Source: Gemmatimonadota bacterium (GTDB lineage Bacteria; JAAXHH01). Taken from it: a stretch of 52,831 nt of DNA. The stretch's first letter is position 1, and every line of letters starts with the position of its first letter. The stretch covers positions 1 to 52,831 of the forward strand of contig VXTP01000016.1 in assembly GCA_009837395.1 (NCBI GenBank), given 5' to 3'. The translations under genes were made by a program, and so were the position numbers. Of the stretch, positions 44,295 to 47,611 are shown one piece after another. The notes beneath the pieces are model-generated. The model saw only the letters and a list, made by a program, of their open reading frames with translations. It made no database searches and was not told the DNA's origin.

Positions 44295-45794
44295 ATGGAC
44301 CGCAACCGACCGAACTCCTATATCGAATTCGACCGGATCACCAAGCGGTTTCCCGGCGTGACGGCCCTCGACGAAGTGACCTTCGGCATCCAGGCGGGAA
44401 CCTGCCATGCCGTGGTCGGCGAGAACGGCGCCGGCAAGAGCACGCTGGGCCGCATCCTGACCGGCATTTACGGCCTCGACGGCGGACAGATCCGCATCGA
44501 CGGCCGGCCCGTGCAGTTTCTTGAACCGGGAGACGCCCTGGAACTGGGCATCGGCATGGTTCACCAGGAGCTCGTTTTCTGCGAGAACCTTTCCGTCGCC
44601 GAGAACCTCTGCCTGGGGAACCTGCCGGCCCGGGGCGGGTTCGTCTCCGACCGGAAGATGGCGCACCGTGCGCGCCGGCTGCTGTCGGCGATCGAAGTCG
44701 ACATGGACGTGGAAACGCCCATCGGAGAACTGCCGGTGGCCCAGCAGCAGCTCGTCCAGATCGCTGCGGCCCTGGGCAGCGGCGCCCGCGTGATCGTCTT
44801 CGACGAGCCGACCAGCAGCCTCTCCCACGTGGAAGCGGAACGGCTTCGGGAGAACATCCGTCATCTCAAATCTAAGGGGGTGACGTCGATCTACATCTCC
44901 CACGACCTGGACGAGATCTTCCGCCTCTGTGACGTCGTGACGGTGCTTCGGGATGGACGGCACGTGGCCACCCGGCCGGTCGCCGAACTCGACCGCCCGG
45001 CCCTGATCAACCTCATGATCGGCCGCACCTTCGAGGCCTACTTCCCCTCCCACGTGGACACCGAGCCCGGCGGACAGATGCTGGCCGTGGAAAACCTGTC
45101 GAGTCCCGGCAAGTTCGAGGACGTGTCCTTCTCGGTGCGGTCCGGGGAAATACTGGCCCTGGCCGGCCTGGTGGGCGCCGGCCGGACCGAAGTGCTGCAG
45201 GCCGTGTTCGGGCTGGACCCCATGGCCACGGGCAGGATCAGCGTTTCGGGCCAGCCGACGAAAATCCGGCACCCGATCGACGCCATGCGGTCGGGCATCG
45301 GCCTCGTGCCCGAGGACCGCAAGCGCTTCGGTCTCGTCCTTTCGCTCCGCGTGGATCAGAACATCGGTCTGCCCACCCTGGCCAGCCGTTCCGATTTCGG
45401 ATGGATCCGCGGCAGCCGGGAGGAAGAACTGGCCCGGGAATATGTGCGGCGGCTGTCGGTGCGGCCCGACAATGTCCGGTACGACACGGCGGGCCTGTCG
45501 GGCGGCAATCAGCAGAAGGTGGTCCTGGCCAAGTGGCTGGCCGCGAACTGCCCGATCCTGCTCATCGACGAACCCACCCGGGGGGTAGACGTGGGCGCCA
45601 AGTCGGAGATGCACGCCCTCATCGATCAACTGGCCCATGAGGGCACGGCCATCGTGCTCGTGTCGAGCGAACTGCCCGAGGTGCTCAACCTGTCGACACG
45701 GATACTCGTGTTGCGTTCCGGGCGTGTGGCTGGAGAACTTTCCCGCGATGAGGCGGACCAGGGCGCGGTGATGCGAATGATGGCGGGGGTGTAG
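44295..45794 (+). CDS. Sugar ABC ATPase, RbsA type (two nucleotide-binding domains)
   Basis: 499 residues. Domain 1: Walker A GENGAGKSTLGRILTG, a degenerate signature region (VAQQQLVQIAAAL) and Walker B VIVFDEPTSSL. Domain 2: degenerate Walker A GLVGAGRTEVLQ, intact signature LSGGNQQKVVLAKWL and LLIDEPTRGVDVG. This alternation is usual in RbsA/MglA. It completes the importer. Downstream the base composition drops sharply into the AT-rich island. Confidence 0.95.
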   Translation: MDRNRPNSYIEFDRITKRFPGVTALDEVTFGIQAGTCHAVVGENGAGKSTLGRILTGIYGLDGGQIRIDGRPVQFLEPGDALELGIGMVHQELVFCENLSVAENLCLGNLPARGGFVSDRKMAHRARRLLSAIEVDMDVETPIGELPVAQQQLVQIAAALGSGARVIVFDEPTSSLSHVEAERLRENIRHLKSKGVTSIYISHDLDEIFRLCDVVTVLRDGRHVATRPVAELDRPALINLMIGRTFEAYFPSHVDTEPGGQMLAVENLSSPGKFEDVSFSVRSGEILALAGLVGAGRTEVLQAVFGLDPMATGRISVSGQPTKIRHPIDAMRSGIGLVPEDRKRFGLVLSLRVDQNIGLPTLASRSDFGWIRGSREEELAREYVRRLSVRPDNVRYDTAGLSGGNQQKVVLAKWLAANCPILLIDEPTRGVDVGAKSEMHALIDQLAHEGTAIVLVSSELPEVLNLSTRILVLRSGRVAGELSRDEADQGAVMRMMAGV

Positions 45795-46048
45795 GGGGTT
45801 CGGGTTACATCACATTTCCTACTTCTCAATTAACCCGACATTCAGATAAAAATATAACATTCTATGTCATACTCCCAATGCTCGCGATTCGTATTGCAAC
45901 ATTCCTCGATTTTTAGGCAAATAAAACGACCAATCATTTAGCAACGTCAGTAAAAGCAACGAAAAAACCAAAATGTTGTAAGAAGGTCACCATGTAAATA
46001 GGCTGATTTGATCGAAGCTTGATTAACACTTCCAAGGGAGCGATTGGA
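45795..46048. other. AT-rich intergenic segment, left part of an island
   Basis: About 250 bases, visibly AT-rich (21 G+C of 60 in bases 45841-45900). No gene, tRNA, terminal inverted repeat or clear promoter recognised. It marks the left border of the compositional island that continues to about 46780. Confidence 0.6.
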
Positions 46049-46645
46049 GTGAATCTTACTTCCAACGAGATCATAACGATTTTATTGTTTCTATTACCCG
46101 GATTTGTAACTGCTGCGATTTTCTTCAGTTATACTTCACATCTCAAACCCAGTCCGTTTGAAAGAGTAATCCAGGCTTTGGTATTCACTATTATGAACCA
46201 CGCAGCGGTAGAAGCTATACGGTTGTGTGGAAGGACATTGCACTGGTTATCTATGAAACTGGACGTCGTTTGGATATACGTGACCGTTTCACGGGTTGCA
46301 TCGATATTCGATTTGGTCCCAGAGGTATTGTTATATGTTGTAATTGCCGTTTTACTTGGTTTTACAGCTGTGTATATTACTAATAATGACACGTTCCACC
46401 GAATACTCCGTAAATACAAATTTACAGTGGAGGATTCCTACCCATCAGAATGGTATTCGGCTTTTGCACAAAGCAGGACTTACGTTGTTCTACACCTTAT
46501 TGGCCAAAGGCGCCTTTATGGTTGGCCCAAAGAATGGTCCGGAAATCCAGACAATGGTCATTTATTGATTTCAGAATGTGAATGGCTAGACGGAGAGCAG
46601 CGAATACCTGTACAAGGCGTTGATACAATGTTGATTCCGGATTAG
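46049..46645 (+). CDS. DUF6338-like membrane protein, AT-rich
   Basis: 198 residues from GTG 46049, chosen for AAGGGAG eight bases upstream; a TTG at 46019 is possible. Three hydrophobic helices lie in the N-terminal half (ITILLFLLPGFVTAAIFFSY; VIQALVFTIMNHAAVEAIRL; EVLLYVVIAVLLGFTAVYIT); the C-terminal half is soluble and ends with a conserved-looking block (YGWPKEWSGNPDNGHLLISE). This matches my memory of the DUF6338 family, whose function is unknown. Codon use is unlike its neighbours (many ATA, TTA, AAT codons). A polyproline peptide gene follows three bases after the stop. Likely horizontally acquired. Confidence 0.7.
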   Translation: MNLTSNEIITILLFLLPGFVTAAIFFSYTSHLKPSPFERVIQALVFTIMNHAAVEAIRLCGRTLHWLSMKLDVVWIYVTVSRVASIFDLVPEVLLYVVIAVLLGFTAVYITNNDTFHRILRKYKFTVEDSYPSEWYSAFAQSRTYVVLHLIGQRRLYGWPKEWSGNPDNGHLLISECEWLDGEQRIPVQGVDTMLIPD

Positions 46646-46648
46646 TTT

Positions 46649-46768
46649 ATGGCTAAAAAACCATTACCTCCGCCAAGAAGAATCAGTGAAGAAACAAGGG
46701 GGCAGACACCAAAACCGGCAAACGTGGTAAAACCACCACCGCCACCTCCGCCTCCACCCAAGAAATAA
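46649..46768 (+). CDS. 39-residue polyproline peptide
   Basis: ATG 46649 to TAA 46768, three bases after the stop of the DUF6338-like gene and with no ribosome site of its own, so translation probably depends on termination-reinitiation. Sequence pattern: basic-proline start MAKKPLPPPRR, a polar middle, then nine consecutive prolines and KK at the end. A nine-proline run would need EF-P. The codons for proline are varied (CCA, CCG, CCT, CCC), so the run is not a simple trinucleotide expansion, suggesting it is selected as protein. Confidence 0.6.
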   Translation: MAKKPLPPPRRISEETRGQTPKPANVVKPPPPPPPPPKK

Positions 46769-46786
46769 CGCCTGATTTTAGTGTGA

Positions 46787-47611
46787 CTAAACTTTCGTAT
46801 CCCGCTTCCCCGGCGCGGCCGCCACGCTCTCCATGCCGCCGCTCACCCGCAGGACTTCGCCGGTGATCCATCCCGCAGCCGGGCTGCAGAGGAAGGCTAC
46901 ACCGTTCGCGATGTCCTCCGGTTCGCCCCACCTCCCCAGCGGTATGGCGCTTCGAATCCGTTCGATCAACTCTTCTTCGGAAAGCCCCAGCGTCTTGCTG
47001 CGCTGGGCCATGTTGAACCGGTTGAACGCGGTGTAGACCGGGCCCGGACAGACGGCGTTCACCCGGACCCCGTAGGCCGCCAGTTCCAGGGCCAGGGTCC
47101 GCGTCAGGCTGATGACGCCCTCTTTGGCCGCGTTGTAGGCCGCCACCAGGGCCGCCGGGTTCTGTCCGTTGATGGATGAGATGTTCACGATGGCGCCCGA
47201 CTCCTGACCCTCCATGATCCGGCCCGCCGCCCGGCAGCAGTAGAAGGTCCCGGTCAGCGTGACCCGAAGGACCCGGTCCCATTCCTCGTCGTCCAGTTCG
47301 ACGACGAGCGCGACCTTCTGGCCTACTCCGGCATTGTTGACCAGTATGTCGAGCCGGCTGTGTGCTTCGGCGACCTCCATAAATAGCCGGTCGACCGAGT
47401 TACTGTCCGAAACGTCCACGTAAGCGGGGAGCGCTTGCAGGTCCGATTTGCGGAGCCTTCCGGCTTCCTCCTCGACCTTCTCGCGTTGCAGATCGGCCAT
47501 CACCACGGTCGCGCCGTTGCGTGCCAGTCGCTCCGATATGCCCAGACCGAGTCCCTGCGCCGCGCCGGTCACGACCGCGATCTGGCCGTCTATACGATGT
47601 GGATCGTCCAT
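46787..47611 (-). CDS. Short-chain dehydrogenase/reductase
   Basis: 274 residues, classical SDR. Cofactor motif VVTGAAQGLGLGISERLA, NNAGVG, catalytic Ser in ISSINGQNPAALVA, then YNAAKEG with Tyr and Lys, and VCPGPVYT. NAD(P)-dependent oxidoreductase for an alcohol or ketone of unknown identity; similar enzymes act on sugars, polyols or 3-oxoacyl thioesters. AAAGGATC precedes the ATG. It begins 13 bases after the OppA-type gene stops, so it is co-transcribed with it. Confidence 0.93.
   Translation of the reverse strand: MDDPHRIDGQIAVVTGAAQGLGLGISERLARNGATVVMADLQREKVEEEAGRLRKSDLQALPAYVDVSDSNSVDRLFMEVAEAHSRLDILVNNAGVGQKVALVVELDDEEWDRVLRVTLTGTFYCCRAAGRIMEGQESGAIVNISSINGQNPAALVAAYNAAKEGVISLTRTLALELAAYGVRVNAVCPGPVYTAFNRFNMAQRSKTLGLSEEELIERIRSAIPLGRWGEPEDIANGVAFLCSPAAGWITGEVLRVSGGMESVAAAPGKRDTKV

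Follow-up and report, generated by a model that had tools for sequence, protein, structure and literature searches.

The closest described counterpart of the locus analysed here comes from P. stutzeri ATCC 14405, in which, according to PMC10433244, a DUF6338 gene and the genes of three proline-rich proteins of fewer than 50 amino acids (SEP1, SEP2, and SEP5) are predicted to form an operon. The SEP peptides are well expressed and were detected by mass spectrometry, whereas the DUF6338 membrane protein was undetected, membrane proteins being under-represented in that proteomics study. That paper describes the peptides as confined to P. stutzeri and perhaps encoded by genes of recent birth, and raises an antimicrobial role as a possibility. 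A second point of comparison is the hipIN organisation (PMC8262856), which is matched by a kinase-HIRAN pair in sister genomes of the one studied here. PADLOC 2.0 gave no match for our DUF6338 protein or its peptide, no family for either protein was present in PADLOC, NCBIfam, or PHROGs, and Pfam held no family for the peptide or for six sampled relatives. In the literature searched, most subscription journals being outside its coverage, PMC10433244 is the one paper that names DUF6338, and no defence-related or Sm-related account of it was found. The peptide family, which gene finders often leave unnamed, is the companion of a widespread membrane protein without known function; DUF6338 thereby gains a partner, a predicted fold, and a setting in prophages, plasmids, immunity operons, and a variable chromosomal hotspot. 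We establish the pairing, its exclusivity in the tested sample, the purifying selection acting on the peptide, and the mobility of the pair.

The window, by which we mean the whole 52,831-nucleotide stretch of DNA analysed, carries the pair in a cassette whose features are listed in Table 1. The cassette has a G+C content of 0.412, compared with 0.639 in the rest of the window, where the next-lowest 970-nt stretch has at least 0.581 (mean 0.638, SD 0.022). Its leader is presumed to carry the cassette promoter. The DUF6338 protein scores 41.4 bits against Pfam PF19865, above the curated cut-off of 26.5 bits. An alternative start is the TTG at 46019, where the mechanically called ORF begins; GTG 46049 is the likelier one because the same start is present in the closest relative (L002/L008, 84% identical). 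The stop codon at 46643–46645 is followed by TTT and then by ATG 46649 of a 39-codon ORF; no obvious Shine-Dalgarno sequence precedes that ATG. The preliminary description, made from the nucleotide sequence alone, had proposed an AT-rich island in GC-rich DNA, a DUF6338-like gene, and a peptide ORF tightly coupled to it three bases past its stop, and all of these stand.

Table 1 Coordinates of the DUF6338 cassette, its parts, and its flanking genes in the window
Feature	Position	Strand	Basis
AT-rich cassette at variable site	45810..46780	.	composition; ABC-SDR interval of about 35–46 bp in G002/G009, other cassettes in other congeners
Cassette leader, non-coding, GC 0.36	45810..46018	.	composition; without long ORF
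DUF6338 gene: predicted three TM helices and C-terminally truncated Sm/LSm-like domain	46049..46645	+	Pfam PF19865 E 1.5e-10; start from L008 alignment; fold from relatives
Junction of in-frame 51-nt deletion versus L008, 17 codons gone (last Sm strand)	46638..46639	+	DNA and protein alignment
Proline-rich partner peptide, 39 aa, MAKKPLPPPRRISEETRGQTPKPANVVKPPPPPPPPPKK	46649..46768	+	ORF; homologue in L002/L008, dN 0.19, dS 2.8; family relatives
Hotspot left flank: sugar-type ABC transporter ATPase gene, ordinary	44295..45794	+	Pfam ABC_tran; 84–94% DNA identity within genus
Hotspot right flank: SDR-family dehydrogenase gene, ordinary	46787..47611	-	Pfam adh_short_C2; kept in genus

A point missed by that earlier description is the truncation of the window DUF6338 copy at the deletion junction relative to L002/L008. 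Only profile positions 7–166 of 205 are matched, so that the full-length PF19865 criterion is failed, while L008 is complete. Without its last Sm strand the window copy may be decaying and is possibly non-functional, L002/L008 being the intact relative; the peptide is still present despite this C-terminal loss. The nine consecutive prolines of the peptide, their mixed codons (CCA, CCG, CCT, and CCC), and its basic ends are all as originally noted. It meets the partner criteria by its position directly 3' of DUF6338, its length (39–72 aa being the range), its hydrophilic character, and its PP(P)KK-type tail, the C-terminal end reading PPPPPPPPPKK. The G[YFW]xP motif is absent, with RGQTPKP (GxTP) standing where congeners have RGYRPKP, and on these sequence features the peptide is treated as a divergent member of the proposed GYxP/proline-rich partner family.

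The pairing looks like a recurrent arrangement, found in at least three phyla and dozens of prophages, and not a local oddity. DUF6338 genes followed by one to three short, basic, hydrophilic ORFs occur in Latescibacterota, Pseudomonadota, and Actinomycetota, as well as on plasmids and prophages, and GYxP motifs recur within the partner ORFs, which also have a tail resembling PP(P)KKP. Within the same genus, further DUF6338 genes precede short basic proline-rich ORFs with a core such as TRGYRPKP..PKPPN. Plasmid pairs are found in Acinetobacter, Proteus, Fluviibacter, Mesorhizobium, Sphingomonas, Pantoea, Rhodococcus, and Streptomyces, and a further one on a Klebsiella phage-plasmid; their partner ORFs, often labelled 'hypothetical protein', carry GYxP-type motifs and in many cases a PP(P)KKP end. 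E. coli prophages likewise encode partner peptides, for example MSDTKRSYKEDGYTPIEKGYQPKNDLANNGFQPSKQTSQPAPPPKKP, and the single nucleotide query used found matches in 6 of 5,426 E. coli genomes. Among the 53 viral loci found in IMG/VR with alignment A3, 52 have one to three partner ORFs, in tandem sets of two or three at 18 of them, and the sole exception stops at a contig edge. Single-query viral scans returned nothing with L003 and L031 and one fragment with L022; phage records yielded the pair once in 50,697, against the 53 IMG/VR loci. The gap between DUF6338 and peptide has a median of 5.5 nt and overlaps are common. The expectation that DUF6338 genes would be repeatedly trailed by short proline-rich ORFs in other genomes is thus met.

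Several observations lie at the edges of the family. A DUF6338-like subfamily (L013, L016, and L019; MPNSIQAIYILIVLLPGFFVV...) has no peptide downstream, and the ORFs that follow these three genes resemble translated tRNA genes. At L017 a C-terminal DUF6338 fragment continues in frame into the peptide ORF, which looks like either a fusion of natural origin or the remains of a decayed copy. The GYxP signature does not cover the whole partner family, since divergent DUF6338 clusters precede proline-rich ORFs with other motifs; those downstream of L079, L082, L085, L086, L068, and L078 include KGSNPPPPP, RSGVQPTKG, and KKGYTAPPPQP. DUF6338 is also present in the archaeon Haloferax volcanii, a control genome.

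The association was quantified with DUF6338 proteins clustered at 60% identity. Under strict terms (an ORF of 25–110 aa with at least 10% Pro, a G[YFW]xP motif, and a start −60 to +120 nt from the stop), a partner follows 19 of 35 DUF6338 clusters and 7 of 381 other ORFs of the same loci (odds ratio 63, P = 6e-18); with the motif dropped, the proportions become 31/35 and 113/381. Because the motif was derived from the same loci, the strict test somewhat overstates significance, a weakness to which the loose and reciprocal tests are less exposed. With a wider downstream range, partners lie downstream in 20 of 36, antisense in 4, and upstream in none. Reciprocally, when 398 Pseudomonadota genomes were scanned with a profile built from 28 peptides, there were two hits, both directly behind independently found DUF6338 genes. 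Searching IMG/VR for exact occurrences of PPPKKP followed by TAA gave 59 matches, of which 25 adjoin DUF6338 and 11 are too close to the end of their stretch to be judged.

Codon comparisons establish that purifying selection acts on the peptide at the protein level. The window and L008 peptides give a dN/dS of about 0.07, with dS saturated, and the other informative pairs range from about 0.01 to 0.27 (dN/dS values, in this order: L005/L011, 0.05/0.26; L006/L012, 0.11/0.43; L007/L012, 0.16/0.82; L058/L047, 0.08/1.58; L047/L050, 0.05/0.85; L022/L026, 0.22/1.09). Since dN is much lower than dS in all informative pairs, the selection inferred earlier from the mixed proline codons is borne out, and the ORF is conserved as protein. 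Polyproline stalls ribosomes, and this, together with the extreme shortness of the ORF and the lack of an obvious Shine-Dalgarno sequence in the window copy, would fit a proline-stall regulatory leader or a chance open frame and not a protein gene. Such an explanation can hardly be maintained in the face of the low dN, the recurrence in three phyla, the operon-end position, the tandem divergent copies, and the mass-spectrometry detection in P. stutzeri reported in PMC10433244. A chance ORF, taken by itself, is ruled out by dN/dS, the background test, and the reciprocal profile search. The recurrence in three phyla rules out a species-specific orphan gene, which is how PMC10433244 reads the P. 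stutzeri peptides.

DUF6338 is predicted with good confidence to consist of three transmembrane helices and a C-terminal Sm/LSm barrel, a model that rests on relatives and not on the truncated window copy. In the AF2 model of L123, a natural pair translated across its stop codon (34-row alignment, mean pLDDT 76.9), the transmembrane helices span residues 2–29, 37–64, and 72–99 with pLDDT of about 90, in keeping with the three-helix membrane protein first suggested; they are followed by a short helix (114–120) and a five-stranded barrel (125–193, pLDDT about 75–90). When this model was compared with the PDB using Foldseek, the top 50 matches were all Sm/LSm proteins (best E 2.3e-4, probability 1.00), and an earlier, shallower model also pointed to Sm/LSm; a sequence-level search of DUF6338 against PDB Sm chains gave no match. 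The highly conserved residues are PGF in TM1, Y47, S48, N51, and Y52 in TM2, and R98, W115, G134, G139, F146, S148, and E191. The polar residues of TM2 would suit a membrane assembly, and the charge distribution, read by eye, suggests that the barrel is cytoplasmic. As we read the alignments, the DUF6338 consensus has SFASS..P where Sm proteins usually have their RNA-binding loop (Sm1 D..MN).

The partner peptides are hydrophilic, with a mean GRAVY of −1.58, a mean charge of +4.4, and 20% proline. In the L123 readthrough fusion the peptide is mostly modelled with pLDDT below 50, only the PPSKKR tail, its last 20 residues, is at 59–70, and no confident docking is seen. The basic proline-rich composition is what would be expected of a secreted antibacterial peptide, for which DUF6338 would serve as exporter or immunity protein, and an antimicrobial role is the possibility raised in PMC10433244. 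We regard this as very improbable: none of the 35 peptides has a hydrophobic 15-mer or signal-like region, the GYxP and PP(P)KKP motifs are conserved, copies are borne on prophages, and DUF6338 has only three transmembrane helices and no transport family match.

The tail of the partner peptides also occurs apart from DUF6338. Phage small proteins without an adjoining DUF6338 end in GYQ[PT]..PPPKKP (L160, L170, L188, L195, L202, L204, and L176; also L155, L185, and L186), and several of them sit between endolysin- or spanin-like and terminase-like genes. At L176 the tail SGYQPKHEIKNPTPPPKKP is carried on an unrelated N-terminal part, which suggests a portable docking motif. No DUF6338 was found elsewhere in any of 10 phage records with the PPPKKP tail and no adjoining DUF6338, and these records may be fragments.

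A portable docking motif on proteins with unrelated N-termini is also what would be expected if the partnership were structural and non-toxic, the Sm-barrel protein serving as a scaffold or as a receptor for RNA or a ligand, with the peptides as its constitutive subunits or adaptors. The Sm/LSm fold itself speaks for such an arrangement, and LSm domains of Edc3/Tral-type proteins bind short linear motifs. The patchy mobile distribution, the co-located immunity genes, and the SFASS..P sequence in place of the usual RNA-binding loop do not sit well with it, and we give it only minor weight.

The cassette occupies a slot between the ABC transporter and SDR genes (window 45795–46811; L108–L116) that is a cassette hotspot in the genus. 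DUF6338 and its peptide are present there in G000 and G004, the slot is empty in G002 and G009 (46 and 35 bp between flanks, respectively), and a HipA_C kinase and a HIRAN protein occupy it in G003, G005, G006, G008, and G010; G007 retains only a hipN-like remnant, and G011 has a frameshifted DUF5131 gene and a further ORF. The acquired module that had been supposed is thereby supported: two congeneric genomes have nothing in the slot, and in others it contains AT-rich cassettes of unrelated content.

Elsewhere, DUF6338 lies beside a SMODS cyclase (CD-NTase, CBASS) and a SLATT-like 2TM effector at L028, behind E2 and E1/JAB genes, together with an annotated metallohydrolase, at L022 and L025, with Tn7-like genes, TIR, and caspase at L023, and with TIR and caspase at L032. 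In prophages the pair forms a separate unit, usually opposed in orientation to its neighbours, and some copies are near TIR and SIR2 genes. Many DUF6338 copies are solitary, without any recognised defence gene as a neighbour; no cyclase lies beside the window pair, and a CD-NTase neighbour was seen only at L028. These contexts were read from examples, without an enrichment statistic; they favour a defence or toxin-like role, which remains unproven.

The mobile setting, the small downstream partners often present in two or three copies, and the hipIN-like cassettes in the same chromosomal slot of sister genomes could also be read as a classical two-component toxin-antitoxin system, with DUF6338 as membrane toxin and the peptides as antitoxins, serving mainly to stabilise mobile elements and not to sense phage. 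In P. stutzeri (PMC10433244) the peptides are abundant and the membrane protein undetected, as expected of antitoxin excess, but membrane proteins are under-represented in that proteomics anyway. The peptides lack any folded or DNA-binding domain, and operons with E1/E2/JAB or CD-NTase would be unusual for a plain toxin-antitoxin pair. We therefore consider this reading unlikely, though not negligible.

As the preferred reading, we propose that the pair is a membrane effector under peptide control, probably related to defence; its function is unproven, and we judge the proposal about as apt to be wrong as right, its main rivals being a plain toxin-antitoxin pair and a non-toxic scaffold. The unit would be a mobile accessory module made of DUF6338, with three transmembrane helices and a cytoplasmic Sm/LSm-like barrel, and of one to three short, disordered, proline-rich partners. 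DUF6338 is inferred to oligomerise through the Sm barrel into a membrane assembly, and the peptides may bind its cytoplasmic face, either keeping it inactive or licensing assembly; both the binding and the direction of control are inferences. Infection, or an upstream sensor where one is present (CD-NTase, the E1/E2/JAB pathway, or a TIR-caspase pair), would release this control, and the released DUF6338 would compromise the membrane, leading to abortive infection or superinfection exclusion, a defence role that is likewise inferred. A more specific version, which we put forward only tentatively, is a new class of bacterial immunity or conflict module in which a membrane-anchored Sm-fold ring or pore is gated by the disordered peptides and plugged into CD-NTase, E1/E2/JAB, and TIR-caspase systems; the GYQP..PPPKKP tail on lysis-region phage proteins could then be a sensed or mimicked signal. 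The function is now directly testable with two-gene constructs.

We regard the pair as new by its architecture because the peptide family is in no library searched and no known system joins a three-TM Sm-fold protein to dedicated disordered peptides; it would extend the known toolkit of mobile-element membrane proteins by an Sm fold with disordered peptides as partners. Should it turn out to act as an ordinary toxin-antitoxin or abortive-infection system, the pair would be less novel than this architecture implies. Pfam gives no function, fold, or partner for PF19865, for which we propose the three-TM and Sm/LSm architecture and an obligate-looking peptide partner. Like archaeal SmAP, eukaryotic Sm, and LSm proteins, DUF6338 would have an N-terminal helix and a five-stranded barrel with LKDG..G and a final hydrophobic strand; unlike them, it carries the barrel behind three transmembrane helices and has the conserved SFASS..P in the RNA-binding loop. 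The hipIN-type toxin-antitoxin (PMC8262856) is an alternative AT-rich two-gene cassette at the same slot, with unrelated proteins, namely a HipA-family kinase, which is soluble, and a HIRAN protein. Immunity operons with 2TM/SLATT effectors, CBASS among them, offer a small membrane protein of similar size and mobile distribution, as beside the CD-NTase of L028; DUF6338, however, is usually without a cyclase, has three transmembrane helices and an Sm barrel, and comes with extra peptides, and at L028 a SLATT-like effector already accompanies it. The P. stutzeri operon (PMC10433244) shares the same DUF6338 and short proline-rich partners, and SEP1, SEP2, and SEP5 are inferred, without comparison of the peptide sequences, to belong to the GYxP partner family, which here crosses phyla, shares a motif, and is under purifying selection.
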